Assembly: GCA_902526075.1 (NCBI GenBank)
Contig: CABZJM010000004.1
Coordinates: forward strand, 1-64,000
Origin: an uncultured Bacteroidota bacterium
GTDB taxonomy: Bacteria; Bacteroidota; Bacteroidia; Flavobacteriales; Flavobacteriaceae
Direction of reading: 5' to 3'
Length of the DNA: 64,000 bases
In this document: positions 45,186 through 64,000 of the stretch, piece by piece
How positions within the stretch are numbered: position 1 is the first letter of the stretch
How the letters are laid out: each line of letters begins with the position of its first letter
Made by a program: the position numbers and the translations under genes
Notes under the pieces: generated by a model
Told to the model about the DNA's origin: nothing
Databases searched by the model: none
What the model saw: the letters and a program-made list of their open reading frames with translations, nothing else

Positions 45186-48100
45186 ATGAAAAAATTACTA
45201 ATAGTATTTCTTCTTTTCCCAATTTTAGTTTTCTCACAAACTAAAACGATTTCGGGAACTGTTAATGACGAAAATAGCCTTCCTCTTGTGGGAGTTAACA
45301 TTACAGTTCAGAATTCAAACCTCGGAGCCTTGACAGACTTTGACGGGAATTTTTCTATTACAATTCCTACCGACAAACCTAGGGTTTTAATATTCTCTTA
45401 TTTAGGCTACACAACACAGGAGGTTGATGTTTCATCATCAGATAATATTTCCATTATGATGATACCAGATCTTGAACAACTTGAAGAAGTAGTTGTTGTT
45501 GGTTATGGTTCAGTATTAAAAAAGGATTTAACAGGTTCACTATCACAGGTTGAAGTTGATGAAGAAGTTGCCAATCAATCAAACTCTATTGATCAGTTAT
45601 TACAGGGTAGAGCTGCAGGAGTACAGGTAATTCAAAATGGAGGAACTCCAGGGGCTGGAATCAGCGTAAAAATCAGAGGTACAAATAGCTTAAGAGGAAA
45701 CAATGAGCCTCTTTATGTTGTTGATGGTGTAATTATTTCTTCAGCAGGTGAAGATGTTTTACCAGCTGGGGTTGGTAATTCTGGTCAAGAAAGTCAAAAC
45801 GGTCTCAATGGAATCAACCCAAGAGACATTGAAAGTATACAAGTTCTGAAAGATGCATCGGCTACTGCTATTTATGGATCTAGAGGTGCTAATGGAGTAG
45901 TTGTTATTACAACAAAAAAAGGAAAGAGTGGCAAGGTTAATATTGAAGCGTTTAGTAATACTTCTGTTAGGGTTATTTCAAAAAAATACGATGTTTTAGA
46001 TCCTTATGGTTTTGCTGCTTATGTTAATGAGGTACAAGCAAGTAATGGATTAAACCCAAGATATTTTATTGATGATGATTATGCAATATATGGTGTTGAG
46101 TCTGACGGTACTATTTCGGCAACACCAGCTCGTTCATATCATTGGCAAGATGAAATATATACAAGTGGAATTAGTAGAAAAGTTGGAGGCTCTGTTTCAG
46201 GCGGAACTGATAATGGAAATTATTACATTTCTGCTGGATTTGATGATCAAGCTGGTGTAGTTCCAACCTCATCATTTAAAAGCGGCGATTTAAGAATGAA
46301 TTTTAATCAGGACCTTAATGATAAGCTTATACTTGAGGCAAGAATGAGTGGATACATAAGTTCAACAAACTTTGCTGAAAGTGGTGACTTAATTGGAGGC
46401 TCAAATCAAAGTTTTATTAAAAACCTTATTTCTTTCAGACCTATTATTACTGAAGAGTTTGAGGATTTTGGTGAAGATTTAGACCTTTCAAATCCTTATT
46501 CCTGGATAAATGATTTTGAGGATATTTCAAAAGAAAGTAGATACATCGGTAACATTGGTCTTACATATAAATTACCTGTTCAAGGCCTCAGATATCAGGT
46601 TAAGGTTGGTGGAAATATTAGAAGCAAAGAAAGAAGAAGATTTTTTGGAACAACAACCTGGCTAGGTAATAATGCAAATGGAGCACTACAAATTACTGGT
46701 CTTAACAACTCTTCTTTTCAAGTAAATAATTTTTTAAGATTTAACAGAACATTAAAGCGTAAGCATAGAATTAATAGTGTTCTTGGTATAACATATGATG
46801 TTAGAAAAGTCTCAAATAATATCTATGCCGTTGAAGATTTTGTAACTACTCAGTTTACAACACAAAATCCAGCGTTTGGACAAGTTATTACTAGACCGCT
46901 TACTTATATTAAAGGTGATCAGCAAATCTTTTCATTATTAGGTAGGCTTAATTATACTTATGATAATACATATATTTTGACTGCGACTTTTAGACGAGAT
47001 GGGGTTTCAAAGTTTGCTCAAAATAATCGTTATGGATTTTTTCCCTCCTTTGCATTAGCATGGAATGTACATCAGAATAATGATTTAAAAATATTTGACG
47101 AGCTTAAGTTAAGAGCTGGTTGGGGTCAAATTGGTAATCACGGAATTGGATCTTATGGTACGTTGTCTAATTATGGAGTTTCACCAAATTTGTATGGAAA
47201 TCCAGACGGGGGCACAAATGTTCCTATTGCCTTACAAAATGTCGCAAATCCTGATCTGACTTGGGAAACTACGGAACAGTTAAATGTTGGAGCTGACTTT
47301 ACAACAACTAACGGAAAGATAAGTGGTACAATTGACATTTACGATAAAACAACAAAAGACTTATTGCAAAATGTAAATATTCCAACATCCTCTGGTTTTT
47401 CAAATATTCTTGTAAATAGAGGTGAAATTTCAAATAAAGGTCTGGAGATTTCCCTGGATACTGAGCTTGTATCTAGCAATGATTTCAATTTAACTTTTGG
47501 AGGTAATATTGGTTTTAATAAAACTAAAATTACAAATTTAGCAGCACAGCCATTAGACGAATTTTATATAGACGGTGTTGTGGAAGAAAGAAGGTTTTAT
47601 TTTGGCGCACAGGTTTCAAGAGGAAACATATTTAAATACCCGGCAAACGTTTTTGTCGAAGGGGAAGAAACAAGTTTATTTTATGGTTTAGAAACTGATG
47701 GAATATATCAAACGGGTGATGTACTTCCTAATATTTTTGGTATTGATGCTGCCCCGGGTGATGTAAAAATAGTTGATCAAAATGGAGATGGTATTATTGA
47801 TTTAAATGACAGAACCTTTATTGGAAACCCAAACCCTGATTTTATATATGGATTTAATTTCAATATAAACTATAAAAGACTATCGGCTAGCATTTTATTT
47901 AATGGCGTTTATGGAAATGATATTGCAAATGGAAACTTGCTTCAATTAGAAAATGCAGAAGGACTAACATATTTAAATATTGTACCCGACGCATACTATA
48001 ATGCATGGAGACCTGACGCTCAAACAAACACCTATCCTAGAATTGGATACACGACTAATGGTCAACCTGCAATGACTGATAGAATTATAGAAGATGGAAG

Positions 48101-48335
48101 TTACTTAAGATTAAGTAATCTTACAGTTAGCTATGACTTTGATGTAAACAACAACGATTCAATAAGTAATTTAAAATTATTTATAGCAGGACAAAACTTA
48201 CTTACATGGACTGATTATTCGGGATATGATCCTGAAATATCAAGCTTTTTATACAATGGTTTAATCAATGGGGTTGACTGGAACGGAAGAGCAAATGCTA
48301 GAACATTTATCTTGGGATTAAATGTTGGATTTTAA
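45186..48335 (+). CDS. susC: SusC-like TonB-dependent glycan transporter
   Basis: Outer-membrane oligosaccharide importer of 1049 residues. Signal peptide (MKKLLIVFLLFPILVFSQ), then a carboxypeptidase-D regulatory-like domain (about 20-105, ISGTVNDENSLPLVGVNITV), the plug with LEEVVVVGYG and SIQVLKDASATAIYGSRGANG, and a long beta-barrel ending in an aromatic strand. It forms the pedal-bin complex with the downstream SusD lipoprotein and imports oligosaccharides released by the surface enzymes. The true susD start lies 28 bp after this stop. First gene of the locus. The symbol denotes family, not starch specificity. Confidence 0.96.
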   Translation: MKKLLIVFLLFPILVFSQTKTISGTVNDENSLPLVGVNITVQNSNLGALTDFDGNFSITIPTDKPRVLIFSYLGYTTQEVDVSSSDNISIMMIPDLEQLEEVVVVGYGSVLKKDLTGSLSQVEVDEEVANQSNSIDQLLQGRAAGVQVIQNGGTPGAGISVKIRGTNSLRGNNEPLYVVDGVIISSAGEDVLPAGVGNSGQESQNGLNGINPRDIESIQVLKDASATAIYGSRGANGVVVITTKKGKSGKVNIEAFSNTSVRVISKKYDVLDPYGFAAYVNEVQASNGLNPRYFIDDDYAIYGVESDGTISATPARSYHWQDEIYTSGISRKVGGSVSGGTDNGNYYISAGFDDQAGVVPTSSFKSGDLRMNFNQDLNDKLILEARMSGYISSTNFAESGDLIGGSNQSFIKNLISFRPIITEEFEDFGEDLDLSNPYSWINDFEDISKESRYIGNIGLTYKLPVQGLRYQVKVGGNIRSKERRRFFGTTTWLGNNANGALQITGLNNSSFQVNNFLRFNRTLKRKHRINSVLGITYDVRKVSNNIYAVEDFVTTQFTTQNPAFGQVITRPLTYIKGDQQIFSLLGRLNYTYDNTYILTATFRRDGVSKFAQNNRYGFFPSFALAWNVHQNNDLKIFDELKLRAGWGQIGNHGIGSYGTLSNYGVSPNLYGNPDGGTNVPIALQNVANPDLTWETTEQLNVGADFTTTNGKISGTIDIYDKTTKDLLQNVNIPTSSGFSNILVNRGEISNKGLEISLDTELVSSNDFNLTFGGNIGFNKTKITNLAAQPLDEFYIDGVVEERRFYFGAQVSRGNIFKYPANVFVEGEETSLFYGLETDGIYQTGDVLPNIFGIDAAPGDVKIVDQNGDGIIDLNDRTFIGNPNPDFIYGFNFNINYKRLSASILFNGVYGNDIANGNLLQLENAEGLTYLNIVPDAYYNAWRPDAQTNTYPRIGYTTNGQPAMTDRIIEDGSYLRLSNLTVSYDFDVNNNDSISNLKLFIAGQNLLTWTDYSGYDPEISSFLYNGLINGVDWNGRANARTFILGLNVGF

Positions 48336-48363
48336 ACAATTAAAAAAACTAAATTCTTTAATT

Positions 48364-49887
48364 ATGAAAAATTTTAAAATAATATTATTAACTATAATTG
48401 GGTTATTGTCAATGTCATGTGACCTTGATGAAGACCCAATATTTTTAGATTCTCAAGCAGTTTATACTGATATTAATGTTGCAAAAGGTGCATTAGATGG
48501 AATTTATCAGGGATTAACTAGCTATGGAGCTCAGGAACAAAGACTTTTTGCTCTTGCAGGTTATTCGGGATTATTTGTTACAGGTAAAAACGGCGGTAAC
48601 AACGTTAATAATGTAAACAATGCAAACTTATTCTCTTTAAAACCAACCTATGATATAGATTCCGAGAATATGTGGGGAGGATTATACAGAGTTATTGCCA
48701 GGTGTAACGGTGCTATAGAAAATGTTTCAACAGTCTTGGAGCCATCATCATCTGATGAATCAGGGTTTAACGATATTGCCGGTCAAGCATACTTTGTTAG
48801 AGCATGGTCATACTTTTCTTTAACTAGATTATGGGGTGATGTACCTCTTTGGCTATCATTACCAAATAATGAAAACTTGCATTTAGCAACTTCACCTTCA
48901 AAGGATATTTATGCACAAATAATTACTGATGCCGAAATGGCAGCCTCTCTTATGAATGGCAATTTTGGAACTGGATATCCTAGGCAGTATGCTGCTAATA
49001 TGTTGCTAGCTAAGGTATATATGACTCTTGCTACTAATCCAGTTTTAAGAGCTGACGGATTAAGTGAAATGGATTACTGGCAATTAGCTTACGATCAAGC
49101 TATGCAGGCTTATGGTCAATACAGTTTAGTTGCTGATTACAGCAGTTTATTCACTGATACTAATGAAAACTCATCTGAATCTATTTGGGAATTACAAATA
49201 AGCCAAGATGCTGCAAACTCACAAATGGGAAGAAATTTTACCCCATGGAAATATAAACTAGGACAACATTTTGGATGGTTAAGGGCTAATGCAGATGTTT
49301 ATAATCATCATATATCGACCTATCCAAATGACCCAAGGCTGGAGGGAACCTACTTACATAGTTATAATAGAGCGGATAATGGAAATTTAGTTACTGTTTA
49401 TCCCTCTAACCCTAATAGACCAAACTTTTCCAAGGCACACCCATTTTTTTTCAAATTCACAGAGAAAGATACTCAGCATAGTAATCAATACGGAGATCAG
49501 AATGTAATCATTTACAGATATGGCGAATTACTAATCATGCTTGCCGAAATATCAAATGAATTAGACAATGGTCAACAATTAGGATTTATAACTGAACTAT
49601 TAAGTAGAGTTGGGATGAGTCCCCAAGCAGACTATTTTGGAACTCAAGCAGAATTTAGAGATGCAATTATGTATGAGTATAGATTTGAAGTGTTAGGTGA
49701 AGGAGAGGATGCGCATAACAACAGAAGGAGAGGATTTGATTATTTTTTAAATAAGACAATTTTATTTCACAATAATAACCCTATTCATAATCCTGCTGTA
49801 GATCTTACTTTAAGTACCGACGAGTCTCAAGTAATGTCATTGCCAATTCCGTTAATTGAAATCAACACTAACGATTTAATTGACTAA
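48364..49887 (+). CDS. susD: SusD/RagB-family glycan-binding lipoprotein
   Basis: Surface lipoprotein of about 507 residues that lids the SusC barrel and binds the glycan. The lipobox is LSMSC (Cys19) followed by DLDEDP, an acidic lipoprotein-export signal typical of surface lipoproteins of the group. TPR-type helices dominate the middle, and the family's C-terminal region includes the DAIMYEYRFEVLGEG stretch. The track start overlaps susC by 14 bp; the ATG at 48364 fits the signal peptide, so I prefer it. Followed by a terminator and then GH30. Confidence 0.95.
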   Translation: MKNFKIILLTIIGLLSMSCDLDEDPIFLDSQAVYTDINVAKGALDGIYQGLTSYGAQEQRLFALAGYSGLFVTGKNGGNNVNNVNNANLFSLKPTYDIDSENMWGGLYRVIARCNGAIENVSTVLEPSSSDESGFNDIAGQAYFVRAWSYFSLTRLWGDVPLWLSLPNNENLHLATSPSKDIYAQIITDAEMAASLMNGNFGTGYPRQYAANMLLAKVYMTLATNPVLRADGLSEMDYWQLAYDQAMQAYGQYSLVADYSSLFTDTNENSSESIWELQISQDAANSQMGRNFTPWKYKLGQHFGWLRANADVYNHHISTYPNDPRLEGTYLHSYNRADNGNLVTVYPSNPNRPNFSKAHPFFFKFTEKDTQHSNQYGDQNVIIYRYGELLIMLAEISNELDNGQQLGFITELLSRVGMSPQADYFGTQAEFRDAIMYEYRFEVLGEGEDAHNNRRRGFDYFLNKTILFHNNNPIHNPAVDLTLSTDESQVMSLPIPLIEINTNDLID

Positions 49888-49903
49888 AAATTTAAATTAA
49901 TAT

Positions 49904-49944
49904 ATGCTGCCATTAATTGTGATATTAGTGGTAGCATTTTTTTT
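49904..49944 (+). terminator. Intrinsic terminator between susD and GH30
   Basis: Arms ATGCTGCCA (49904-49912) and TGGTAGCAT (49929-49937) pair over 9 bp with one G-T wobble, loop of 16 nt, then a T-run to 49944. It stands 5 bp before the TTG start of the GH30 gene, so no promoter fits between them. It should act as a partial terminator that lowers enzyme transcription relative to susCD. Confidence 0.8.
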
Positions 49945-49949
49945 GAAAA

Positions 49950-52106
49950 TTGAGAAGTTTAATAATAACAGCTTTAATGACTTTGGTTTTGTGCCCCTTA
50001 ATTTCGCAAAATCAATTACCTCTTGCCAATGGTTTTCTAGAAGATATTGAAAATAATGAATTTCAATATTGGAGCCATCAAGCCAATGAGGGAGGAGAGG
50101 CAACATACTCAATTGAAACAAATGATTTGGTTGCGGGTAGCACAAAAGCTCTAAAATGTGAAGTGCATTCATTGGGGGCAAACGGATGGCATGTTAGTTC
50201 AAAAAGTGAATATCCTTTTCAAGTTATTGCCGGTCAAAAATATACAGTGACTTTCTTTGCTAAGGTTGAGGGAGCAGACTCAAGGCAAGTGAAACTTGTT
50301 TTTCAATCTGATGTTTCTGGTAGTTATCAGGGACAAAATATTTGGATAACTAATGAATGGCAAAGATATTCTCATACTTTTACTGTTGAACATTCTAGTG
50401 ATAACAATAGGGTGAGGTTTTGGTACATGCAATCTGACGTAACTTACTTATTGGATGAAGTGAGTATTTCCCCAGGCGATAGAATAACCTTTCAACCTGA
50501 AGAAAAACATCAAACAGTTGATGGTTTTGGAGCAGGAATTAAAAGAAGAACAGAGCAGCTCTATGTATTAAACGACTCGTTTAGAGAACAAATTGAACAA
50601 TATTGTTTTAATGACCTTGAGGTTAATATGATTAGGTTTTTTGTTTATCATGATTTAGAGCCTGAAAATGATAATGATGATCCGTACAGCTTAGACGAAT
50701 CACAACTTGATTGGACAAGATATGATAGTGATCCAACTATTTGGAGAACAAGATATGTTGGTGAAGCCTTACAAAATGCTTTTAGCCAAAGTATCAACGG
50801 ATTTGATCACATTATTGGTAACTGTAACAGCGCCCCAGCTTGGCTTAAAACAAACGGTCAACATAATGGTGGAGGCACTCTGATTAGTGGAGGAGAATCA
50901 GAATTTAGTGAGTTCCTAGTTGCTTTTTTAAACGGTATGGAATCACGATATGGAATTGAAGTAACGGCAATTTCTCCTACAAATGAACCTGACTACGAAG
51001 TTTCATATGAATCTATGAATACAACTCCTTCAGAATTATCAAGTATATTAATAAATCTTAACTCTAGATTGTCAAACTCTGGTTTAAATTATATCGATAT
51101 AGTTTCACCTGAATGTTTTAGAGTTGAATCTCAAAATTCCGGAACTTCTGCTACCAATTATATTAATACAATGTTTGAAAATTCAGCTGTTGAGGAAGCT
51201 GTGGATATTGTAGCTACTCATACTTATGCTGACCCCAATCATAATGCTAATTGGAATGCATTAAAAGTAGCGGCTAATGGTAAACCAGTATGGGTAACGG
51301 AATCTGCAAATCTCAATAGTACAGATCAATCAATGACAGATGCCGCAAATTATATTAAGTGGATAATAAGAGGATTTAACGAAGGTGGAGTTACTGCTTA
51401 CATGCTACATTTATTTTATGAGGAAGCCGATAACAATGGTTATTCTAGCTTAGTTGCATGGACTCCAATAGGTGAAATAATTTTACCAAAAAGATATCAT
51501 TCATTCAAGCATTTTACAAACTTAGTCAAGAAAGATTATAGCCTGATTAGTTCTGCTTCAAGCGATGAAAATGGAGTTTTTGTTGCTGGATTTATTTCAG
51601 ATGATGAATCTAAGGTAATAGTTCAAATATTTAATGAGGGAAATGAAAAAGACTTATCAATAGATATTCCGCTTGGTGCAATATCAGTTGAAACCTTTTT
51701 AACCACTAATAATGACTCTCAGGAGTTTTCATCCTTGGGGACATATGAAATAGATTATTATAACAGATATTTTACAACAACTCTGCCCGAATTATCTTTA
51801 ACTTCACTAGTTTTTGATATTGATGAATCTCTTTCTAACAGTGAGTTTAATTTTATAAATAATAATGATTTTCAAGTTGAGTTATTCCCTAATCCAGCAG
51901 AAGATCAACTCAATTTGATTCTACCTGATTATTCGAATTATAATGTTAAGATTTTTAATTTACAAGGTCGAAAATTAATCGATAGGTTTAGTAATAATAA
52001 AGAAGTTTTACTTGATATGTCTAAATTTCAAAAAGGAACTTACTTACTAAAGGTAAACTCTACAAGGGATAAAAGGACAGTAACTAAAAAGATAATCAAA
52101 CAATGA
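49950..52106 (+). CDS. Secreted GH30 glycoside hydrolase with N-terminal CBM and T9SS domain
   Basis: Endo-acting clan-A beta-glycosidase of 718 residues, probably a xylanase given the GH10 and CBM22-like neighbours. Signal peptide about 1-20; a CBM4/9-like beta-sandwich at about 24-175 (SDVSGSYQG, YSHTF, RFWYM); GH30 barrel at about 180-560 with acid/base Glu346 in TNEPD and nucleophile Glu451 in VTESAN; side beta-domain to about 620; T9SS type-A sorting domain from about 640 (VELFPNPAEDQL). TTG start at 49950. The CBM is paralogous to the stand-alone 178-residue protein downstream. Glucuronoxylanase, xylanase or another GH30 activity cannot be separated by eye. The next sulfatase overlaps by 4 bp. 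Confidence 0.92.
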   Translation: MRSLIITALMTLVLCPLISQNQLPLANGFLEDIENNEFQYWSHQANEGGEATYSIETNDLVAGSTKALKCEVHSLGANGWHVSSKSEYPFQVIAGQKYTVTFFAKVEGADSRQVKLVFQSDVSGSYQGQNIWITNEWQRYSHTFTVEHSSDNNRVRFWYMQSDVTYLLDEVSISPGDRITFQPEEKHQTVDGFGAGIKRRTEQLYVLNDSFREQIEQYCFNDLEVNMIRFFVYHDLEPENDNDDPYSLDESQLDWTRYDSDPTIWRTRYVGEALQNAFSQSINGFDHIIGNCNSAPAWLKTNGQHNGGGTLISGGESEFSEFLVAFLNGMESRYGIEVTAISPTNEPDYEVSYESMNTTPSELSSILINLNSRLSNSGLNYIDIVSPECFRVESQNSGTSATNYINTMFENSAVEEAVDIVATHTYADPNHNANWNALKVAANGKPVWVTESANLNSTDQSMTDAANYIKWIIRGFNEGGVTAYMLHLFYEEADNNGYSSLVAWTPIGEIILPKRYHSFKHFTNLVKKDYSLISSASSDENGVFVAGFISDDESKVIVQIFNEGNEKDLSIDIPLGAISVETFLTTNNDSQEFSSLGTYEIDYYNRYFTTTLPELSLTSLVFDIDESLSNSEFNFINNNDFQVELFPNPAEDQLNLILPDYSNYNVKIFNLQGRKLIDRFSNNKEVLLDMSKFQKGTYLLKVNSTRDKRTVTKKIIKQ

Positions 52107-53503
52107 AAATAAACGGTTCCACATATTATTTTGTGCTAATATTTTTATTGTTTTTTAATAGTTTTTATGCTCAACAAGAATCAAAGCCTACCAATATAAT
52201 ATTTTATCTTTCAGATGATCAGGATCTTTTAGATTACGGAGTTTATGGCAACCCAAAAGTTGAAACTAGTAATGTTGATCTTCTAGCAAATCAAGGGATA
52301 AAATTTACAAATTTTTATTCTGGTCAGGCCATATGTGCTCCTAGTAGATCGCAAATTTTTACTGGAATGTATCCGGTAAAAAACGGTTGCATGGCAAATC
52401 ATATTGGTGTAAAGCCAAATATAAAAAGTATTACATCGTTATTAAAGGAATCAGGATATGAAGTGGTTTTAGCGGGTAAGAGCCATGTCAAACCAAACAA
52501 AGTGTTTGATTGGACACACTATTTTCCAAAAGTTAATAACAGATATTTACCACTAGAAAAAATTGACGATTATTTAAAAAATGTCAATAAACCATTTTGC
52601 TTAATTATTGCTTCAGATTATCCTCATGGTCCGTTTCCTAAAACTGACAATTATGGTAAAGCTGATATTTTTAAATTGCCATATGATCCAAATTATGTTG
52701 GTAATCACAAGCCAGGGTATTACCAAAATATTCAAGACGATAATGATCAGCTTGGAAAAGTTTTAGAAATGGTTGATAAGCATGGTCATAGAGAAAGCTC
52801 TATGTTTATTTATGCTTCAGACCATGGTCTCAGTGGTAAGTGGAGTTTAAAAGAACAAGGACTTCGTCTTCCGTTTGTTGTCAGATGGCCTGGAAAAATT
52901 ATGCCCAACACAACCTCTCAAACATTGTTGACTCTTGTAGATGTTTTACCTACTATTTTGGAAGTATCAAAAACCAAAATTCCTAGAGAACTTGACGGGA
53001 AAAGCTTTGTTGTGTCATTAAAAGGTGATAATAAGCAAATTAATGAATATATATACGGGGTAGCTACTAGACAAAATATTAGGGAATGTAAAATTTTCCC
53101 TTCTAGAATGGTAAGAGACTCAAGGTTTAAGCTAATAAGAAATTTTAATTCCATTGAGGTTGTCAATTCAAATTTGGGTGACAATCCAATTATAAACGAA
53201 TTTGCCAAAATCGGAGCAGAATCTTTTCCAAATATTCCTTACGAAGAATTATACGACTTAGAAAAAGACCCATATCAAAAAGTAAATTTGATAAAGGATA
53301 ATAAATATAAAAAAATAAGAAACAGATTATCAATCGCTTTAGAAAACTGGATGAAAAGTCAAGAAGATTTTCTGTTGGAAGATCCAATCTCAATATTAAA
53401 ACCGACCCTTCATCCTTTAGATAAAAATTCAAAATGGAATAGGGTACCTCAAAGTTTGACCGGTAAACTAAAAAATGAAGACTATATTAAACTCCACTAT
53501 TAA
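52103..53503 (+). CDS. S1-family sulfatase (first)
   Basis: Secreted arylsulfatase-fold enzyme of 466 residues with a signal peptide (residues about 1-23). The formylglycine motif is CAPSR (Cys78), preceded by YLSDDQD, whose Asp residues bind calcium; ASDYPHGPFP and ASDHGLSG supply further active-site residues. It hydrolyses sulfate esters (or sulfamates) from glycans; the overall pattern resembles N-sulfoglucosamine sulfohydrolase-like enzymes, but the substrate is not certain. Start overlaps the GH30 stop by 4 bp. It needs a formylglycine-generating enzyme, which is not in the window. Confidence 0.93.
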   Translation: MKINGSTYYFVLIFLLFFNSFYAQQESKPTNIIFYLSDDQDLLDYGVYGNPKVETSNVDLLANQGIKFTNFYSGQAICAPSRSQIFTGMYPVKNGCMANHIGVKPNIKSITSLLKESGYEVVLAGKSHVKPNKVFDWTHYFPKVNNRYLPLEKIDDYLKNVNKPFCLIIASDYPHGPFPKTDNYGKADIFKLPYDPNYVGNHKPGYYQNIQDDNDQLGKVLEMVDKHGHRESSMFIYASDHGLSGKWSLKEQGLRLPFVVRWPGKIMPNTTSQTLLTLVDVLPTILEVSKTKIPRELDGKSFVVSLKGDNKQINEYIYGVATRQNIRECKIFPSRMVRDSRFKLIRNFNSIEVVNSNLGDNPIINEFAKIGAESFPNIPYEELYDLEKDPYQKVNLIKDNKYKKIRNRLSIALENWMKSQEDFLLEDPISILKPTLHPLDKNSKWNRVPQSLTGKLKNEDYIKLHY

Positions 53504-53504
53504 T

Positions 53505-55160: not shown

Positions 55161-55167
55161 ATTTATA

Positions 55168-56607
55168 ATGAAAAAAATATTTGTAATCATCCTAGGAGTA
55201 TTTCTAATATCATGTAATAATCATGTTCAAAAAAAGCATAACATACTTTTTATTTCAATTGATGATCTAAGGCCAACTATGAATTCTTATAATTATGAAA
55301 ATGAGAAAATGATTACTCCTTACATGGATAAGTTGGCTTCTGAGGGCGTACAATTTAATAATGCTTTTACAAATATTGCAGTATGTGGTGCAAGTAGAGC
55401 AAGTATTATGACTGGTGTTAGACCAAGCGAGAAGAGATTTAATGATTTTTCAACTCGAGCGTCAGTTGACGCCCCAAATGCAATTCCGCTTAATCAGATT
55501 TTTAAAGAAAACGGATATGAGACTATTTCATATGGAAAGATTTACCATCACAATGATGATTTTGCAGAGTATTGGACAGAAAAAGATAATGGTGCAGCTC
55601 AAGCTGATTTTCAAGATCCAGAATCTATAAGATTACGAGATAATGCTGAAACGGGTGAGTATGGTAAGAAAAATCCAATTGTCGAATATCCTGATGTAGA
55701 TGACTTTGCATATAATGATGGAAAAATTACACTTAGGGCAATTGAAAAGTTTAAGGAATTTAGCAACAATGGAAAACCTTTTTTTATGGCAATCGGATAT
55801 GTATCTCCTCACCTACCTTTCATACAGCCTAAAAAATATTGGGATATGTATGACCATGATAAAATCAAATTAGCAGAAAACACATATCAACCTCTGAATT
55901 CACCAGACATAGCAATTGAAGCACAACATAATTCAGCGGAACTTAGAAAAAATTACCTTGGAATTCCTGCCGAAGGATTACTGGATGAGAAATTATCACG
56001 GGACCTTGTTCATGGTTATTATGCGAGTGTTTCCTATATGGATGCAATGATTGGAAAATTAATCCAAGGATTAGAAGAGGCTGGATTAAGAGATAATACA
56101 ACAATAATTTTGTGGAGTGATCACGGATACTTTTTAGGTGAACATGGCTTTTGGTGTAAGCATAGTACTTTTTACGAAGCAGTCCAAACCCCGTTAATTA
56201 TATCTTCTCCAAAATATAGTGCAAAGGATAATTCAGATTCTTTCACGGAGTTAGTTGACATATACCCCACAATTTGTGAGCTTACCGGGATAACTCCTCC
56301 GAATTATATACAAGGACAAAGCTTAACTCCCGTTCTTGAAAATCCAAAAATTATTTTAAAAGATGAGGTTTACACAAGATATAAGCAAGGCGAAGCAGTG
56401 ATAGATAAAAACTATTCTTACACTGAATTTGTATTAGGAGAAAAATATTTAGGTAATATGCTTTATGATATGCAAAACGATAAAAAGCAAAATATTGATA
56501 TTTCAAAACTCCCTGAAAATAAAGAGCTTGTTAAAAAATATAGTATTAAATTAGAAAAGATGAGAACTTATGTAAATAAGGATCCGTTTCAAAATCAATC
56601 AAATTAA
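55168..56607 (+). CDS. S1-family sulfatase (third), lipoprotein
   Basis: Sulfatase of 479 residues with a lipobox (LISC, Cys16) for outer-membrane anchoring. SIDDLRP is typical of iduronate-2-sulfatase-like enzymes. The formylglycine motif is CGASR (Cys73), with Ala in place of the usual Pro; this variant still has the Cys and Arg needed for maturation by FGE. WSDHGYFLGEHGFW supplies metal and active-site residues. Follows the second sulfatase by 7 bp and is followed by the beta-helix gene after 2 bp. Confidence 0.92.
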   Translation: MKKIFVIILGVFLISCNNHVQKKHNILFISIDDLRPTMNSYNYENEKMITPYMDKLASEGVQFNNAFTNIAVCGASRASIMTGVRPSEKRFNDFSTRASVDAPNAIPLNQIFKENGYETISYGKIYHHNDDFAEYWTEKDNGAAQADFQDPESIRLRDNAETGEYGKKNPIVEYPDVDDFAYNDGKITLRAIEKFKEFSNNGKPFFMAIGYVSPHLPFIQPKKYWDMYDHDKIKLAENTYQPLNSPDIAIEAQHNSAELRKNYLGIPAEGLLDEKLSRDLVHGYYASVSYMDAMIGKLIQGLEEAGLRDNTTIILWSDHGYFLGEHGFWCKHSTFYEAVQTPLIISSPKYSAKDNSDSFTELVDIYPTICELTGITPPNYIQGQSLTPVLENPKIILKDEVYTRYKQGEAVIDKNYSYTEFVLGEKYLGNMLYDMQNDKKQNIDISKLPENKELVKKYSIKLEKMRTYVNKDPFQNQSN

Positions 56608-56609
56608 CT

Positions 56610-59117
56610 ATGATGATTTCAAAATCTTATAAAGTATTGTGTGTATTTTTTATATTAATGTTTACAAGCAATCAGCTTATAATTGCACAGGATTTTTATG
56701 TTTCAGATTCAAACGGTTCAGATAATTATTCAGGCACCCTTGAAGCACCCTTTAAAACAATAAATAAAGGGATTGCTATGGTTAGTGCCGGAGGAACAGT
56801 TTATGTTATGGATGGTATTTACCAAAATGAAAATTATGGCACTGTGGATCCTTCAACTAATACAAACATGGATAATCCACACGTAGTTACTGTCAATAAA
56901 TCAGGTAGTGAAGGCGCATATATTACATTAAGAAATTACCCAGGACAAACACCCAAAATTCAATTTGATGGAAGAGGTGGTATAGTTATTTCAAATAACA
57001 TGAATTATATAATTATCGAGGGCTTTGAAGTTGAGGGTCCTGCACAAGATATTAATTATGAAATGGCTGAGGCGGATAGAAATTATAAAATTGAAATGGC
57101 TGAAGACGAAGATGATTCTACAAATTATAACCATTCTTATTTTGGAGGAAAAGGAATATGGGGAGGCTACGGAGCTCATCACAATATTATAATAAGAAAT
57201 AATATTGTACACGATACGTGTGGCTCTGCAATTAGATTTAATGACAGTGATCACATATTAATAGAAAACAATATAGTTTATAATTCAAACTGGTGGACTT
57301 CTTCGGCATCAAGCGCCATTGTACTAGCTGAATCCATTGCGGTTTCTGGTGATAATAGTAACGATATTAAAATGATAATTCGTGGAAATATTGTTTATAA
57401 TAATTGGAATAGAATTCGATTTTATGTGACACAACTCCCAGATAATTCAGGAAATAATAATCCAAATTATGGAACAGCAAATTTTCAATCTATATGGGAC
57501 GGCCAAGGCATTTATGTTACAAGAAGCGACCCTGAATATGCTGGAACTTTTTTATTCGAAAATAATTTGTGTTTAAATAATGGTAAAAATGGAATTAATT
57601 TTGACCATTCGCACTCAGCCTCTGCAATTTATCAAAATAATACACTTTACTATAATGGGGTCCATGAAATCATTCAGGACATATCGGAAGCTGAAGGTAA
57701 TCCAGCACACAGAGGACAAAAAGTAGGTGGTATAAAAGCCAACCACGTTCTAAATGCTACCGTTGTAAATAATATTATTATGACTCGAGATAATGAGTTT
57801 TCAGCTCTTCAATTAAATAATGTTTATGGAACTAGGGTCGCAACTGATAACATAATTGTTAATGGGACCTATGCATGGCCGGCTACTGAAAGTAATAATC
57901 TTATCAATGTTGATCCTATGTTTACTTCAGCACCTGAGACTGTGGATGGTCCACTTACTTTCGAAGGAACTAATTTTTCACTTACTGAAGGTTCTCCAGC
58001 AATAAATGCAGGAAACCCTAGTTATAGCCCTACTCATGATATTGAAGGAAATCCAAGACCAGTTTCAGCAAGTGCTATTGCGTCAACAAGTTTTGAAAAT
58101 GCAACTGGCGGATGGACAGCATTTGGCTCTACAATTGAAACATCATCCGAGCAATCATTATCGGGTGATAGAAGCTTATTTACAATGGATAGGACAGCAA
58201 ATTGGCATAGCCCAAGAATCGTATTAAACAATCTACTTGATCAAGGTGATACATATACATTTTATATTTGGGTTAAATTAGCTGATGGTGAGACTGGTAC
58301 ATCTCAGTTAACAATAAAGGATACTGATCAAAATGATTATTATAATCTAACTGATGCTATTGAGGTCTCTGATCAAGAATGGACTTTATTAACTGCAGAT
58401 TTTACACATAATATTTCAAATAATTTCTTTTTGTATGTGAAAGGACCACCTGTACAAGGTGGTGTTGGTGCCAGCTATTACATTGATGATTTTTCACTAG
58501 TTACCGAAGGCTCTGCAGCGGTTGATTTTGAAAATTCTGGTGATATAGTTGATATCGGAGCATATGAGTTTAGCACCAATGAATGTTCAAACGACACAAT
58601 ACCACCGGTAATTGAATTTTCAGATTGTGGTGGGTCAGGATGTAGTTATGAATATGAAATAAATTCAACTTTTGATATAGATGATATTGATCTTCCAACA
58701 GTAAATGACAATTGTGATAGTGACATAAGTTATGAGGTTTCTCATAATGTTGACACATCAATAATTGGAGTTTATTTTGTCACTTTTACAGCCTCTGATG
58801 ATTCAGGAAATTCTGTGAGCACTCAAGTTGAGGTAACTGTTTTTGACCCACTTTCTATTTCAGAAAATAATGTTGAAAACATGTTTGTGTATCCGAATCC
58901 TGTCAAAGACATACTTAACATTCAAAATGTTTATTCGAATTCAAAAATATCCGTGTTCGATATATTGGGTAAAAATTATGAAATAAATATTATAAATAAT
59001 TTTGAAAGTAATTCGCTTTCTATTGACACATCAGGTTTTGAAAAAGGCTTATATTTTTTAAAGCTTGAGGATATAAATACGGGACAATCAAAAATCTTTA
59101 GATTAATAAAACAATAA
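56610..59117 (+). CDS. T9SS-exported right-handed beta-helix protein with inserted CBM22-like domain
   Basis: Exported protein of 835 residues. Signal peptide about 1-26; right-handed parallel beta-helix about 28-470 starting DFYVSDSNGSDNYSGTL, the fold of polysaccharide lyases and several hydrolases. The helix-capping EGNPRPV at 479-485 and DIGAYEF at 648-654 are normally adjacent but here are split by a carbohydrate-binding domain of about 140 residues (about 493-632) with RTANWHSP, characteristic of xylan-binding CBM22. A HYR-like domain (about 660-755) and a T9SS type-A domain (MFVYPNPVKDIL) follow. Catalytic residues cannot be named; a lyase, hydrolase or binding role are all possible. 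Confidence 0.85.
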   Translation: MMISKSYKVLCVFFILMFTSNQLIIAQDFYVSDSNGSDNYSGTLEAPFKTINKGIAMVSAGGTVYVMDGIYQNENYGTVDPSTNTNMDNPHVVTVNKSGSEGAYITLRNYPGQTPKIQFDGRGGIVISNNMNYIIIEGFEVEGPAQDINYEMAEADRNYKIEMAEDEDDSTNYNHSYFGGKGIWGGYGAHHNIIIRNNIVHDTCGSAIRFNDSDHILIENNIVYNSNWWTSSASSAIVLAESIAVSGDNSNDIKMIIRGNIVYNNWNRIRFYVTQLPDNSGNNNPNYGTANFQSIWDGQGIYVTRSDPEYAGTFLFENNLCLNNGKNGINFDHSHSASAIYQNNTLYYNGVHEIIQDISEAEGNPAHRGQKVGGIKANHVLNATVVNNIIMTRDNEFSALQLNNVYGTRVATDNIIVNGTYAWPATESNNLINVDPMFTSAPETVDGPLTFEGTNFSLTEGSPAINAGNPSYSPTHDIEGNPRPVSASAIASTSFENATGGWTAFGSTIETSSEQSLSGDRSLFTMDRTANWHSPRIVLNNLLDQGDTYTFYIWVKLADGETGTSQLTIKDTDQNDYYNLTDAIEVSDQEWTLLTADFTHNISNNFFLYVKGPPVQGGVGASYYIDDFSLVTEGSAAVDFENSGDIVDIGAYEFSTNECSNDTIPPVIEFSDCGGSGCSYEYEINSTFDIDDIDLPTVNDNCDSDISYEVSHNVDTSIIGVYFVTFTASDDSGNSVSTQVEVTVFDPLSISENNVENMFVYPNPVKDILNIQNVYSNSKISVFDILGKNYEINIINNFESNSLSIDTSGFEKGLYFLKLEDINTGQSKIFRLIKQ

Positions 59118-59142
59118 TATTATATAAACAAAACAATCAGTT

Positions 59143-59679
59143 ATGAAACTTACTATTAAATTTATTTTAACACTTTTTATAGTCTTCTTTTACACTTTTT
59201 CATTTTCTCAAAAATCTTTAGAATTAAAGAATTCAGATTTGGAGAGGGTTAGTCCTGATGGTAAGTTTTGGTGGTGGAATGACGTTACGCGCAAAGGAGC
59301 TGATGCTACATTTTCTGTGGAGGATTTCGATACAAATCCGGGCAGTCAAAAGGCCCTTAAAGTACAAACTCATACGATGGGCGAAAAGGGTTATCACTTA
59401 AGTTCCCAATACAATCAAAAGTTTAAAGGAAAAGAAGGAGATGCCGTCACAATTTCTTTTCATGCCAAGAACAAAGATGGAGGAGGAAAAATGAAATTAG
59501 TGATTCAATCTGATGTTCAAGGAAGTTATCAGGGAAAGGATTTTATTCTCTCGGAAGATTGGACCAAATATTCACATACTTTTAACTTAAAATCTAATAG
59601 CTCAAATCAAGCAATAAGATTTTGGTATATGACTGAGGGAACAGAATTTTTCTTAGACGACGTATCAATATCAAAATAA
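59143..59679 (+). CDS. Secreted stand-alone carbohydrate-binding module
   Basis: Small exported protein of 178 residues: signal peptide (about 1-22) and a single CBM4/9-like beta-sandwich with no catalytic domain and no T9SS tail. It shares SDVQGSYQG, YSHTF, RFWYM and DVSIS with the N-terminal domain of the GH30 enzyme, so the two are paralogues and should bind the same ligand. Probably periplasmic or released; it may help capture or present oligosaccharide. Own short spacers on both sides, no obvious promoter. Confidence 0.82.
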   Translation: MKLTIKFILTLFIVFFYTFSFSQKSLELKNSDLERVSPDGKFWWWNDVTRKGADATFSVEDFDTNPGSQKALKVQTHTMGEKGYHLSSQYNQKFKGKEGDAVTISFHAKNKDGGGKMKLVIQSDVQGSYQGKDFILSEDWTKYSHTFNLKSNSSNQAIRFWYMTEGTEFFLDDVSISK

Positions 59680-59714
59680 ATTATTAAATTATTAATTATA
59701 AAAACAAATTAATT

Positions 59715-62700
59715 ATGAATAAACTTTACTCAATCATTGTAGCTTTATTGATGTTTTTCAATTTAAGCTTATTTGCCCAAGATAGCCCACCTTGGGATTT
59801 TAACGGAACTGATCATGGCTTTGTTGCACAAAATTATGCATCATTATTAGTGGGCGACTCTTATGTTACTTTTACCTTGACTGATGCTGATGGAGATGGA
59901 GATGCTGAGTCTGCAAACTCAAATTTCAGAAATTTAGACGCAGGAATTGACACGTCTTTAGGTGGTTTTATTGCAATCACGATGAAAAATGAAACTGCCA
60001 ACAACAAAATGCAGGCAATCATTGGTACACCAGGTGGTGGTTGTGGATGTTATGTAAATTTTGAAACGCTTACTGCTAATGACGAAGATTTTGTAACTCA
60101 TTATATAAATGTGGGTGCAAACTCAAATTGGACCGGAACAATTAGTGAAATAATTTTTAGGTTTAAAAAAGGTAATGGAGTCAACAATCAGACTTTTGCA
60201 GGAGATATTTTGATAGATCATATTGAAATTGTAGAATCAATTCCTGCTACTCCAAGAGTTGACTATACATTTGATGATACTTCCGATAGCGAAGGTTTTT
60301 CTGGAGTTAATGGTATTACACTTACACAGCCAGTAGCTGGCGAACTACATTTAGATATAGCTGCTCAGAGCCCATATCCAAAGTTGGAGCAAACAGGCCT
60401 TTACAGCGTTGATGCTGATACGTATAAATATGCGCAAGTAACATTGATAAATAATTCACCAAAGAATAAGCTAACCCTTGTTTCACCCAGTGGTGGAAAC
60501 CAGTATTCAACTAGGGATATGGTAGCAAATGATGGTGTTGTTCAAACATACGAGTTAGACCTAACTGCTTTAACAAATTGGAACGGCACTCAAGCAAATT
60601 GGTGGCTTCAACTAGTTGAAAATCCAGGGGATGGACCAGTCGCATCAGCAGGTATTATTGACATTCAGCAAATTTTATTTGCTACTGAATCTATTATGCC
60701 CCCAGTCTTAGCTTGTGATGAAACTTACTCATATACTTACGGTAACAATGAGTCTGGAACATTATTTAGTGCTTCAAACCCTGGTGGAGAAGTAACGGTA
60801 ACGGTAACTGGTTCAACAGAAAATAATTATGATGACTTAATCATGACAGATGGTGCTGGAAATGTATTGTATAGTGCTTCTGGTGATCATACTGGTCAGG
60901 CAATTACTTCTACTGATGGTACAATCTATGTAGAAATTGATTCTGACGGTTCTGTTAGTGGATTTACACTTGACTTTGCTGTCACTTGTCCTGCAGCAAC
61001 AACAAATGTTACATTCAGTGTAAATACTGAGAACATTGAAGTAGGTGCAAATGGTATCTATGTTGGTGGTGGAGTTCTTGGTGGTTCTGACGCTTACGCA
61101 TTATCAGATGATGATGGTGATGGTGTTTGGGTAACTACTATTGCTTTAGCACCTGGTACTACAGGAAACTACATATTCTTTAATAGCCCTAACGGTTCAT
61201 CTGACTGGGGAACAAAAGAAAATTTAAATGGTCAAGATTGTGCTGATCCAGCCAACTATGATGATAGAATCTTAGATCCAGTAGGAGAAGAAGATTATAC
61301 ATTATTACACTGCTTTGGAGAATGTTCAGGTAATGGTACAGGCGAATGTCCTGCTCCATCAACTACTTATGACGTTACATTCAATGTAAACATGAGTAAC
61401 TATCCTGGAGGATTAGCTGACAGTGATATCGTTTACTTAAACGGTAACTTTGTTGGATGGTGTGGAGACTGTACTCCAATGAACGACGATGATGGAGACG
61501 GAATTTGGACTGTAACAATTGCATTAGAAGATGGTGACTATGAATATAAGTTCACTATTAACGGATGGAGTGTTCAGGAAGAATTTGGATCAATCGGAGC
61601 TGTTGAAGGTTGTACAGTTACTGATGGTACATATACCAACAGAGCATTTACAGTCGCTGGTGCTGATATGACATTAGAAACAGTATTCTGGAACTTATGT
61701 CCTGGCGAAACACCTGGTCAAGTTTACAATGTAACATTTGCTGTTGATACAGCTAATATTACCGTTGGTGATAGTGGTATGTATTTAGGTGGTGGTGCAT
61801 TTGGAGACGCACAAGGTCACGCAATGTCCGATGACGACGGAGACGGAGTATATGAGGTTACACTTGAGGTTAATACAGATCAAGTTGGAGCGAATTATAT
61901 ATTCTTAAACGGACCTAATGACGGTGGTGACTGGGGAGCTAAGGAAGACTTAGCTGGCCAAGAATGTGCTGACGTAAACAACTATAATGATAGAATGCTA
62001 CCTGAATTTGATGGCGATACATACTTATTACACTGCTTCGGAGATTGCTCTGGTGATGGTGTAGGTTGTGCTGCTACTGAAGATGGTATGATGGTTCTAC
62101 AAGGTATCATTGACTTTACAGTTCCTAGTGCTGGTTCTGACGGAAAAGCGATTCATGTACTTGTTACTGAAGATATCGCTGACCTGTCTAACTATGGAAT
62201 AGGTGTTGCTAACAACGGTGGTGGTACCGATGGTGAAGAATATATCTTCCCAGAAGGTTCAGCTACTGCTGGTCAACATATATTAGTTGCTAGATCTCTG
62301 GAAGCCATGGAAGCTTATGGAATGACTGGCTTTGACCAAGTACTACAAGCAAGTAGTGATATTTCACAAAATGGTGATGATGCTATCGAGCTTTACTTTG
62401 GCGGAGGTGTTATCGAAGTATTCGGTGATGTTGATGTTGATGGTACTGGTGAAGCATGGGAATACATGGATTCTTGGGCATATAAAGTTGAAGGAGCGTG
62501 GACGTATGGTGAAGTTAACTGTACTGACGGTTCAGAAACAACATGTGATTCAGGATGTCCATATCCATTTGTAGAATGTGCTGCCCCTGTAACATTCCCA
62601 TTGTGTGAAGACTTTGAGGATGGAACTGAAGGATGGACATTTGTTGACCTAGGAGGTTTAGATTCTGATTGGCTAATTGATACTCCAGCAAATGGAGATT

Positions 62701-63314
62701 CAGCTGCTGCATTAGGTCACGGTTACTTACCTTCAACTGCTGCATATGATGACTGGGCAATTTCCCCATCATATGATACATCAGGTTTAACTGAAGGAAC
62801 AGCAACTGTATCCTACTTTGAATATCTAAACTGGTCAGCTGATGCTACTGCACACAACGTATGGTACGCAACTGATTATGCAGGTGATCCAACAACTGCT
62901 ACATGGGTATTATTAAATGATGTAATCGGTACTGATGCTGAAGATGTATTTGTACAGAGAACATTTAGTATACCAAGTGCTGAAAGTGTTGTAATTGGAT
63001 TCCAGTATAATAGTACTTATGGTGCTGATTGGAACATCGATGACATCTGTATAGATGGTACATTATCTACAAGTAATAATGAAATACTTGATATGATGAT
63101 TTATCCTAACCCAGTTGATGGTAACTATGTTACTATTGTAACTCCGGTACAAGGATCTAAGGAAATTCAAGTATTTACTGTAACTGGTAGAAAAGTAATG
63201 GATACTGTTATTAATGGAAACACACTTGATGTGAGTTCATTCAATAGTGGTTTCTATATGCTGAAAGTTACAGTTGATGGACAAAGTAAAGTATCTAAAC
63301 TAGTTGTTAGATAA
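59715..63314 (+). CDS. Large T9SS-exported multi-domain glycan-binding protein
   Basis: Exported protein of 1199 residues without a recognisable catalytic domain. Order: signal peptide; two CBM-like beta-sandwiches (about 26-175 and 180-325); a C-rich CUB-like domain (about 334-425); three related repeats (about 430-537, 551-662, 670-779), each with a DDDGDG acidic loop and ending in a Cys-rich segment, resembling starch-binding-type (CBM20/AMPK-like) sandwiches; a lamin-tail-like domain (about 790-950); a MAM/choice-of-anchor-J-like domain (about 963-1115); T9SS domain (MMIYPNPVDGN). Likely a surface glycan-binding protein of the locus. A strong terminator follows. Confidence 0.82.
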   Translation: MNKLYSIIVALLMFFNLSLFAQDSPPWDFNGTDHGFVAQNYASLLVGDSYVTFTLTDADGDGDAESANSNFRNLDAGIDTSLGGFIAITMKNETANNKMQAIIGTPGGGCGCYVNFETLTANDEDFVTHYINVGANSNWTGTISEIIFRFKKGNGVNNQTFAGDILIDHIEIVESIPATPRVDYTFDDTSDSEGFSGVNGITLTQPVAGELHLDIAAQSPYPKLEQTGLYSVDADTYKYAQVTLINNSPKNKLTLVSPSGGNQYSTRDMVANDGVVQTYELDLTALTNWNGTQANWWLQLVENPGDGPVASAGIIDIQQILFATESIMPPVLACDETYSYTYGNNESGTLFSASNPGGEVTVTVTGSTENNYDDLIMTDGAGNVLYSASGDHTGQAITSTDGTIYVEIDSDGSVSGFTLDFAVTCPAATTNVTFSVNTENIEVGANGIYVGGGVLGGSDAYALSDDDGDGVWVTTIALAPGTTGNYIFFNSPNGSSDWGTKENLNGQDCADPANYDDRILDPVGEEDYTLLHCFGECSGNGTGECPAPSTTYDVTFNVNMSNYPGGLADSDIVYLNGNFVGWCGDCTPMNDDDGDGIWTVTIALEDGDYEYKFTINGWSVQEEFGSIGAVEGCTVTDGTYTNRAFTVAGADMTLETVFWNLCPGETPGQVYNVTFAVDTANITVGDSGMYLGGGAFGDAQGHAMSDDDGDGVYEVTLEVNTDQVGANYIFLNGPNDGGDWGAKEDLAGQECADVNNYNDRMLPEFDGDTYLLHCFGDCSGDGVGCAATEDGMMVLQGIIDFTVPSAGSDGKAIHVLVTEDIADLSNYGIGVANNGGGTDGEEYIFPEGSATAGQHILVARSLEAMEAYGMTGFDQVLQASSDISQNGDDAIELYFGGGVIEVFGDVDVDGTGEAWEYMDSWAYKVEGAWTYGEVNCTDGSETTCDSGCPYPFVECAAPVTFPLCEDFEDGTEGWTFVDLGGLDSDWLIDTPANGDSAAALGHGYLPSTAAYDDWAISPSYDTSGLTEGTATVSYFEYLNWSADATAHNVWYATDYAGDPTTATWVLLNDVIGTDAEDVFVQRTFSIPSAESVVIGFQYNSTYGADWNIDDICIDGTLSTSNNEILDMMIYPNPVDGNYVTIVTPVQGSKEIQVFTVTGRKVMDTVINGNTLDVSSFNSGFYMLKVTVDGQSKVSKLVVR

Positions 63315-63336
63315 TTTATTAAGCCTATAAATAAAG

Positions 63337-63369
63337 AATGCCAGATAAATTTTTATCTGGCATTTTTTT
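63337..63369 (+). terminator. Strong intrinsic terminator before GH10
   Basis: Arms AATGCCAGATAA and TTATCTGGCATT pair perfectly over 12 bp with a 4 nt loop (ATTT), followed by TTTTT. It lies 23 bp after the 1199-residue gene and only 16 bp before the GH10 start codon, leaving no room for an intervening promoter. Confidence 0.9.
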
Positions 63370-63385
63370 AATAATTTAAACCAAT

Positions 63386-64000
63386 ATGAAAAAGATATTT
63401 ATTTTTCTCTTTGTTTCTATACCGTTCTTTGCTTGTTCGCAAGAAAAAGAAAGTTTAAAAGAAAAATTTGCAGATTATTTTTTAATTGGAGCAACTATAA
63501 ATCAAGAGGATTATCAAATTATTGATAAAGATGAAAACATTTTAAAAATTGTTTATGAAGACTTTAACTCAGTGACACCTGAAAACTCAATGAAGTGGAT
63601 GCACTCACACCCTGATTATTCAAAGTTTACATTTTCAAATGCTCAGAAAATTACAGATTTTGCCAAAGAAAATGATATGTATTTATTGGGTCACACCTTG
63701 GTGTGGCATAATCAAGTTCCTGATTATGTTTCAAAAATAGAAGACAAATCAAAATTTAACTTACATGTTAAAAACCACATATATCAATTAGTAACAAGAT
63801 TCAAAGGCAAAGTTGATATGTGGGATGTGGTTAACGAAGCATTAAATGATGATGGATCGCTAAGAGAGACTGTTTTTCTTGAAATGATGGGTGATAATTA
63901 CATAGAAAAAGCGTTTCAATATGCAAATGATACAGATCCAAATGTTGAGCTTGCATACAATGATTACAATCTATATAAGCCAAAGAAAAGACAAGGTGCA
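63386..64000 (+). CDS. GH10 endo-xylanase lipoprotein, truncated by the window edge
   Basis: The first 205 residues of a GH10 endo-1,4-beta-xylanase; the frame is open to the right edge, and about 150 more residues including the nucleophile Glu lie outside. MKKIFIFLFVSIPFFAC is a lipoprotein signal (Cys17), so the enzyme is membrane-anchored. LGHTLVWHNQVP and the acid/base Glu151 in WDVVNEALND are definitive GH10 motifs. It makes xylan the best candidate substrate for the whole locus. No CBM lies before the catalytic domain. It follows a strong terminator, so expression depends on read-through or a promoter hidden in the hairpin region. Confidence 0.95.
   Translation, partial: MKKIFIFLFVSIPFFACSQEKESLKEKFADYFLIGATINQEDYQIIDKDENILKIVYEDFNSVTPENSMKWMHSHPDYSKFTFSNAQKITDFAKENDMYLLGHTLVWHNQVPDYVSKIEDKSKFNLHVKNHIYQLVTRFKGKVDMWDVVNEALNDDGSLRETVFLEMMGDNYIEKAFQYANDTDPNVELAYNDYNLYKPKKRQGA

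Follow-up and report, generated by a model that had tools for sequence, protein, structure and literature searches.

The window analysed here is a stretch of 64,000 nucleotides, bases 1-64000 of contig C4 (88,091 bp) in a bacterial assembly of 1.24 Mb that is 62% complete, and its right-hand part carries genes for xylanases, sulfatases and glycan uptake that form a candidate polysaccharide utilization locus (PUL) for sulfated xylan. The end of the window truncates this locus; the contig extends 24 kb beyond it, with the locus reaching about 81 kb of the 88-kb contig, and the bounds are taken as about 45.2-80.6 kb. As in other PULs, a SusC/SusD pair (TIGR04056 and SusD Pfam matches) lies beside carbohydrate-active enzymes, with a glycoside hydrolase of family 30 (GH30) immediately downstream. 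The locus contains every GH10 of the assembled genome (three) and four of its eight sulfatases. The host is a marine member of the Flavobacteriaceae, in the genus that also contains the MED-G13 metagenome-assembled genome (MAG), because near-identical loci (85-96% in the sulfatase-GH10 fusion gene described below) occur in the uncultured Bacteroidetes assemblies AG-461-C17, AG-426-N06 and AG-894-C03 and in Flavobacteriaceae MED649. This open-ocean genus has small genomes and is known from single cells plus Mediterranean and North Atlantic MAGs.

Within the window the genes follow each other on the + strand. A SusC-type TonB-dependent outer-membrane transporter (45186..48335; TIGR04056 831 bits, cut-off 368), which in several further genera has homologues of 53-65% identity close to S1-GH10 genes, is followed by a SusD-type surface glycan-binding lipoprotein (48322..49887; PF14322 and PF07980 over cut-off). 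The GH30 (49950..52106) has an N-terminal CBM4/9-like carbohydrate-binding module (CBM) and a sorting tail (Por_Secre_tail) of the type IX secretion system (T9SS). It scores far under the cut-off of the NCBIfam XynC model and is xylan-type by its nearest relatives, the closest solved structures being AcXbh30A (7n6h, E 2e-18) and then GH30 xylanases. Next come three S1 sulfatases, A (52103..53503), B (53475..55160) and C (55168..56607), the last a putative lipoprotein with a lipobox-like Cys 16. They precede a β-helix protein with a CBM22 and a T9SS tail (56610..59117), which corresponds to the "PL9-CBM22" of published PULs, and a stand-alone secreted CBM (59143..59679). The latter gave zero matches in a Pfam search; it aligns to residues 4-175 of the GH30 (38% identity over 173 aa, E 3e-39) and is thus a paralog of the module in that enzyme. 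A T9SS-exported multi-domain protein of 1199 aa (59715..63314; Por_Secre_tail, weak AMPK1_CBM match) is kept at the same place across the genus and, judged by its sequence, is likely a surface glycan-binding protein. The window closes inside the gene of GH10a (63386..64000, the first 205 of 370 aa), an endo-xylanase and putative lipoprotein with a PF00331 score of 332 bits. The first-pass annotation, made from the window, had listed a GH30, three S1 sulfatases, a CBM22 and a GH10, all of which are indeed present. Between the genes of these last two proteins, at 63333-63368, a self-complementary stretch forms a hairpin, which might serve as terminator or attenuator separating two transcription units.

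Extending the contig to the right, as that annotation had advised, completes GH10a (63386-64498) and reveals one more sulfatase, the fourth, which is part of a fusion with a GH10. A GPH symporter (contig 64502-65935) and a GH43 β-xylosidase (65944-66993) come directly after GH10a; the best solved matches of the GH43 are β-xylosidases (5glk, 500 bits over 323 aa; 4mlg, 464 bits; E 4e-149), a high similarity that agrees with GH43_1. A GH5 with T9SS tail (67006-68997, minus strand), whose closest solved relatives are endoglucanases, and GH10b (69043-70257, minus strand) precede the fusion of sulfatase D, a helical domain and GH10c (70298-73282, 994 aa). Two acyl-removing candidates follow, a BD-FAE-type esterase (73285-74124) and a second esterase-like gene (74136-74987, minus strand). 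The remaining genes lie on the minus strand and comprise an SSS symporter (75001-76653), the xylose isomerase xylA (76660-77973; 671 bits, cut-off 533), a xylulokinase-type kinase (77981-79465; TIGR01312 296 bits, the best family but below its cut-off of 380) and a gene for an enzyme of the formylglycine-generating type (FGE-like; 79536-80588). The FGE-like open reading frame (ORF) has NCBIfam matches to superfamily members only and contains the two-Cys active-site motif GGSFLCHDSYCASYR; GGSFLCHxSYC, with two active-site Cys, is the motif of formylglycine-generating enzymes.

The formylglycine motif is intact in all four S1 enzymes (CAPSR in A and B, CGASR in C). Sulfatases A, B and C score 126-142 bits with Pfam Sulfatase (cut-off 25; A reaches 138 bits with PF00884) and belong to truly different subgroups by sequence, as first proposed from the window, because their mutual identity is only 23-27%. 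Their affinities are read from the nearest solved structures, not from SulfAtlas subfamily models: A is a distant S1_8 relative (9bb9, an S1_8A, E 3e-33), B is S1_8-like (S1_8A/B/C, 9bb9, 9bbd and 9bba, E 4e-72 to 3e-55, the best of the remaining sulfatases reaching 1e-32), and both C and D are S1_7-like, with P18_S1_7 (6hhm) closest at E 2e-87 and 1e-74, respectively. P18_S1_7 and P32_S1_8 are recorded as 2-sulfo-D-xylose sulfatases of ulvan degradation (PMC8360166, PMC9096561), and the two reviews disagree on which is the endo- and which the exo-acting enzyme.

Both catalytic Glu residues, the acid/base and the nucleophile, are kept in GH10a, GH10b and GH10c, as expected of GH10 enzymes. GH10a is a canonical xylanase (closest solved structures GH10 xylanases, 4k68 E 7e-91), while the other two score only 137 and 136 bits with the Pfam model. 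In S. lividans XynA numbering, the glycone-site residues E43, N44, K47, H80, W84 and W274 are canonical in 15/15 GH10a-type proteins, and the control GH10s (n=20) have W84 in 20/20 and W274 in 19/19 scored. GH10c-type domains keep both Glu, replace W84 by G or S (23/23 scored) and H85 by P (23/23), and have lost W274. GH10b orthologs carry F and P at positions 84/85, their -2 site contains an insertion, and both Glu are kept where scored. From sequence, the altered glycone site of GH10c-type domains may accommodate a sulfate group. We tentatively propose, at somewhat less than even odds, that the GH10 of the fusion marks a distinct, repeatedly sulfatase-fused clade that cleaves still-sulfated xylan, here sharing a single polypeptide with a 2-O-sulfo-xylose sulfatase. 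To our knowledge, no characterised GH10 has sulfoxylan-specific activity.

The association of this GH10 type with sulfatases was quantified by searching 400 Flavobacteriaceae genomes with the fusion protein as query and picking loci by their GH10 match; three genomes without a listed S1 neighbour were fetched and counted as well, and 20 other GH10 loci, also from Flavobacteriaceae, served as controls. An S1 sulfatase lies within 8 kb of the GH10c-type domain in 22/22 loci and of the other GH10s of the family in 0/20. The arrangement of the two partners varies. Eight genomes outside the genus encode S1-GH10 in one ORF (about 860-890 aa), in the sublineage of the window (5 assemblies) the single ORF is longer (about 990 aa), a helical domain of ~100 aa separating S1 from GH10, most other members of the genus have an S1-helical protein lacking the GH10, and in about ten genera S1 and GH10 are two neighbouring genes. 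Two separate, unfused ORFs are found in G133, G153 and L013. The last of these, AG-461-G08 (L013:1-1509), has a stop codon between the sulfatase-helical part and the GH10 and is 84-86% identical overall; this split gene is a possible intermediate of fusion. A small secreted protein encoded nearby, at contig position 82121 (L006:121-459), is a relative of the helical domain (L005:8298-11282, residues 545-650; 29%, E 5e-10).

In domain trees, the sister group of the S1 of the window's fusion consists of those S1-helical proteins of the genus that lack a GH10, and this S1 clusters with the other fused S1s (100/96). The GH10 of the fusion instead joins G047 and unfused GH10s (97/100) and stands away from most of the fused ones. 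The simplest reading of these sequences is that the fusion arose by domain exchange or by more than one fusion event, because the S1 and GH10 trees conflict. A single origin of all fusions is unsupported, as the two domains group with different sets, and fission after an older fusion keeps a residual chance as an alternative history. Outside the Bacteroidota, Pontiella sulfatireligans encodes GH10 then S1 in one ORF (L022:7994-12277), an independent fusion in reverse order; a second of its ORFs (L022:18905-21325) combines a marginal N-terminal GH30-type domain, an S1 and a CBM.

Among the 21 genomes of the genus (56-86% complete), sulfatase B is found in 19/21, and 18/21 match the fusion in its S1 or its GH10. 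Members of the genus share the order of genes between GH10a and the FGE-like gene, and gene order is partly kept across about 20 genera. The locus is therefore a near-core trait of this small-genome marine genus, and assigning GH10a to a separate locus, which would have weakened the case for a xylan system, is rejected by the conserved gene order.

The best solved match of the CBM22 in the β-helix protein (residues 490-631) is the CBM22 of a xylanase (E 3e-16; profile E 6e-23). Resemblance to a PL9 lyase covers the first ~140 residues only and that to a GH120 xylosidase the first ~60, and the middle of the protein has no close solved relative or PL9 match, also with a 14-sequence profile. PL9 as its class is therefore unsupported past a short N-terminal stretch and the published "PL9" label is doubtful. 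Strong homologues of the protein occur in 9/400 Flavobacteriaceae genomes, at least 7 of which have the sulfatase or sulfatase-GH10 gene as well. Viral contigs yielded just two weak matches.

The best explanation is that the locus is a PUL for a sulfated, probably acylated, β-1,4-type xylan, to which we assign a probability of about 0.75. The xylan side of this reading follows from the three GH10s, the GH43, GH30 and CBM22, xylA, the xylulokinase-type kinase and the GPH and SSS transporters, and the sulfate side from the four S1s with intact motifs and S1_7/S1_8 affinities and the FGE-like gene. The two sides are tied together by the S1-GH10 fusions, the 22/22 versus 0/20 linkage and the reverse fusion of Pontiella. 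Gene content, intact catalytic motifs, linkage with its control, conservation in the genus and domain trees are shown at the sequence level. The suggestion of the first-pass annotation that the locus may desulfate and cut a sulfated xylan-type polymer is thus supported, as a prediction, by gene content and sulfatase affinities.

Several points weigh against this reading. The GH30 has just a weak match, of about 69 bits, sulfatase A is without a close characterised relative, the GH5 looks endoglucanase-like by sequence, and the β-helix protein is a putative enzyme whose sequence assigns it to no catalytic class. S1_7 also holds a kappa-carrageenan 4-sulfo-galactose sulfatase and S1_8 galactose-2-sulfatases (PMC9096561, PMC12549532); because both subfamilies include galactose-acting members, they leave the target sugar unfixed. 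With the genome 62% complete, debranching genes elsewhere could be missed, and the enzyme roles as well as the tie between host and polymer are predictions from sequence.

In the scheme that we infer, including the localization of the proteins, the position of the sulfate, the order of steps and sulfated xylan as the natural polymer, attack would begin at the cell surface, where the T9SS-exported GH30, β-helix-CBM22 protein, GH5 and binding proteins would act on the polymer together with the lipoprotein GH10a. The sulfated pieces would enter through SusC/SusD. In the periplasm, sulfatases of the S1_7 and S1_8 types, which the FGE-type enzyme of the locus would activate, would take sulfate (most likely 2-O-sulfate) off xylose. 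The sulfated or just-desulfated chain would meanwhile be cut by the remodelled GH10b and by the fusion's GH10, and the esterases would strip acyl groups. The GPH symporter could then carry short xylo-oligosaccharides to a cytoplasmic GH43 β-xylosidase, and xylose, for which the SSS symporter would be a further route of entry, would pass through xylose isomerase and xylulokinase.

The substrate might instead be a sulfated xylose-containing heteropolysaccharide with no xylan backbone, such as an ulvan-like polymer, xylofucan, xyloglucan or xylomannan. The nearest characterised sulfatases do belong to the ulvan pathway, a cellulase-like GH5 and the β-helix enzyme are present in the locus, and sulfated xyloglucans are among the candidates of Kappelmann et al. 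(PMC6298971). We nevertheless consider this rather improbable in view of the three GH10s, the GH43 β-xylosidase and the xylose-catabolic genes, and since Pfam/NCBIfam annotation found no rhamnosidase, ulvan lyase, unsaturated-uronyl hydrolase, fucosidase, mannosidase or glycosaminoglycan (GAG) lyase in the locus. The same evidence bears on the concern, raised with the initial annotation, that the sulfatases act only on unrelated glycans: two of the four are nearest to a 2-sulfo-D-xylose sulfatase and one to S1_8, a group of 2-O-sulfatases including the sulfo-xylose one. A non-xylan GH30, the other doubt raised then, is likewise disfavoured, as xylan-active GH30s are its nearest relatives.

An accident of neighbourhood, in which an ordinary locus for unsulfated xylan happens to adjoin unrelated sulfatases, is very hard to reconcile with the single-ORF fusions, the 22/22 versus 0/20 linkage and a gene order kept in the genus and partly in about 20 genera, even if GH10a is a canonical xylanase and sulfatases are common in marine Flavobacteriaceae. 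A variant within the sulfated-xylan reading, which we consider unlikely, is that the backbone is a sulfated mixed-linkage β-1,3/1,4-xylan of the red-algal type. Mixed-linkage xylan is recorded in red algae (PMC8360166), and the CBM22 and the altered glycone sites of GH10b and GH10c would suit an unusual chain. By contrast, no member of a β-1,3-xylanase family (such as GH26) was found in the locus, and the sequences leave the linkage unfixed.

This type of locus is not new as an idea, being already published as a prediction. In their 2019 paper (PMC6794258), Krueger et al. described two gene patterns, and loci that combine both, as putative PULs for sulfated xylan in North Sea Formosa, Aurantivirga and Polaribacter (sulfated-xylan/xylose-rich), expressed in bloom metaproteomes. 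All five elements of their pattern 2 (GH30, three sulfatases, PL9-CBM22, GH10, GH43_1) occur here in order, with the PL9 class doubtful. From pattern 1 (sulfatase-domain GH10, GH3, two more sulfatases) the fusion and the sulfatases are present, whereas no GH3 was found in the locus; the two patterns are sometimes combined in those PULs, as they are here. Unlike in those PULs, an additional helical domain separates the sulfatase from the GH10 in the present fusion, and the locus adds the GH5, a second GH10 (the remodelled one), xylA/xylB, transporters and the FGE-like gene in a small-genome host. PUL136 of Formosa sp. Hel3_A1_48, predicted for sulfated β-xylan (Kappelmann et al. 2018, PMC6298971), likewise belongs to a SusC/D, GH10/GH43 xylose-rich class with sulfatases. 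The ulvan pathway of Formosa agariphila also uses S1_7 and S1_8 on 2-sulfo-xylose and a GH-sulfatase fusion (P36 GH78-S1_25), but ulvan lyase, rhamnosidase and uronidase are replaced by xylanases in this locus. The S1_8 sulfatases of the Pseudoalteromonas lambda-carrageenan system (PMC12549532), the closest solved relatives of sulfatase B, are 2-O-sulfohydrolases too, but they have galactose targets in a galactan pathway with GH150/GH110/GH2. Biochemical proof of a sulfated-xylan PUL was not found in the open-access literature searched, most subscription papers lying outside that scope.

What the analysis adds is the locus in its full extent and its near-core status, a measure of how tightly sulfatases and this GH10 type are linked, a history of the domains in the fusion and the clade of remodelled GH10s. 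The locus would amount to a complete gene kit to seize seaweed- or plankton-type xylan, desulfate it, cut it and burn the xylose. It supplies compact enzymes, among them a sulfatase-xylanase fusion made by nature and a GH10 clade that is linked to sulfatases and recognisable by diagnostic residues. If these are active as predicted, sulfated xylan would be a real marine carbon source and the enzymes would be reagents to detect it.

Two further regions of this genome were noted. A second sulfatase-rich locus, on contig C14:2087-19272, has two SusC genes and three sulfatases. Within the window, 37723-38730 encodes a secreted protein adjoining a TonB receptor in which YadA-head-like repeats (STAMG units) were seen by eye; its C-terminal domain, also judged by eye, resembles a self-cleaving S74-type chaperone.

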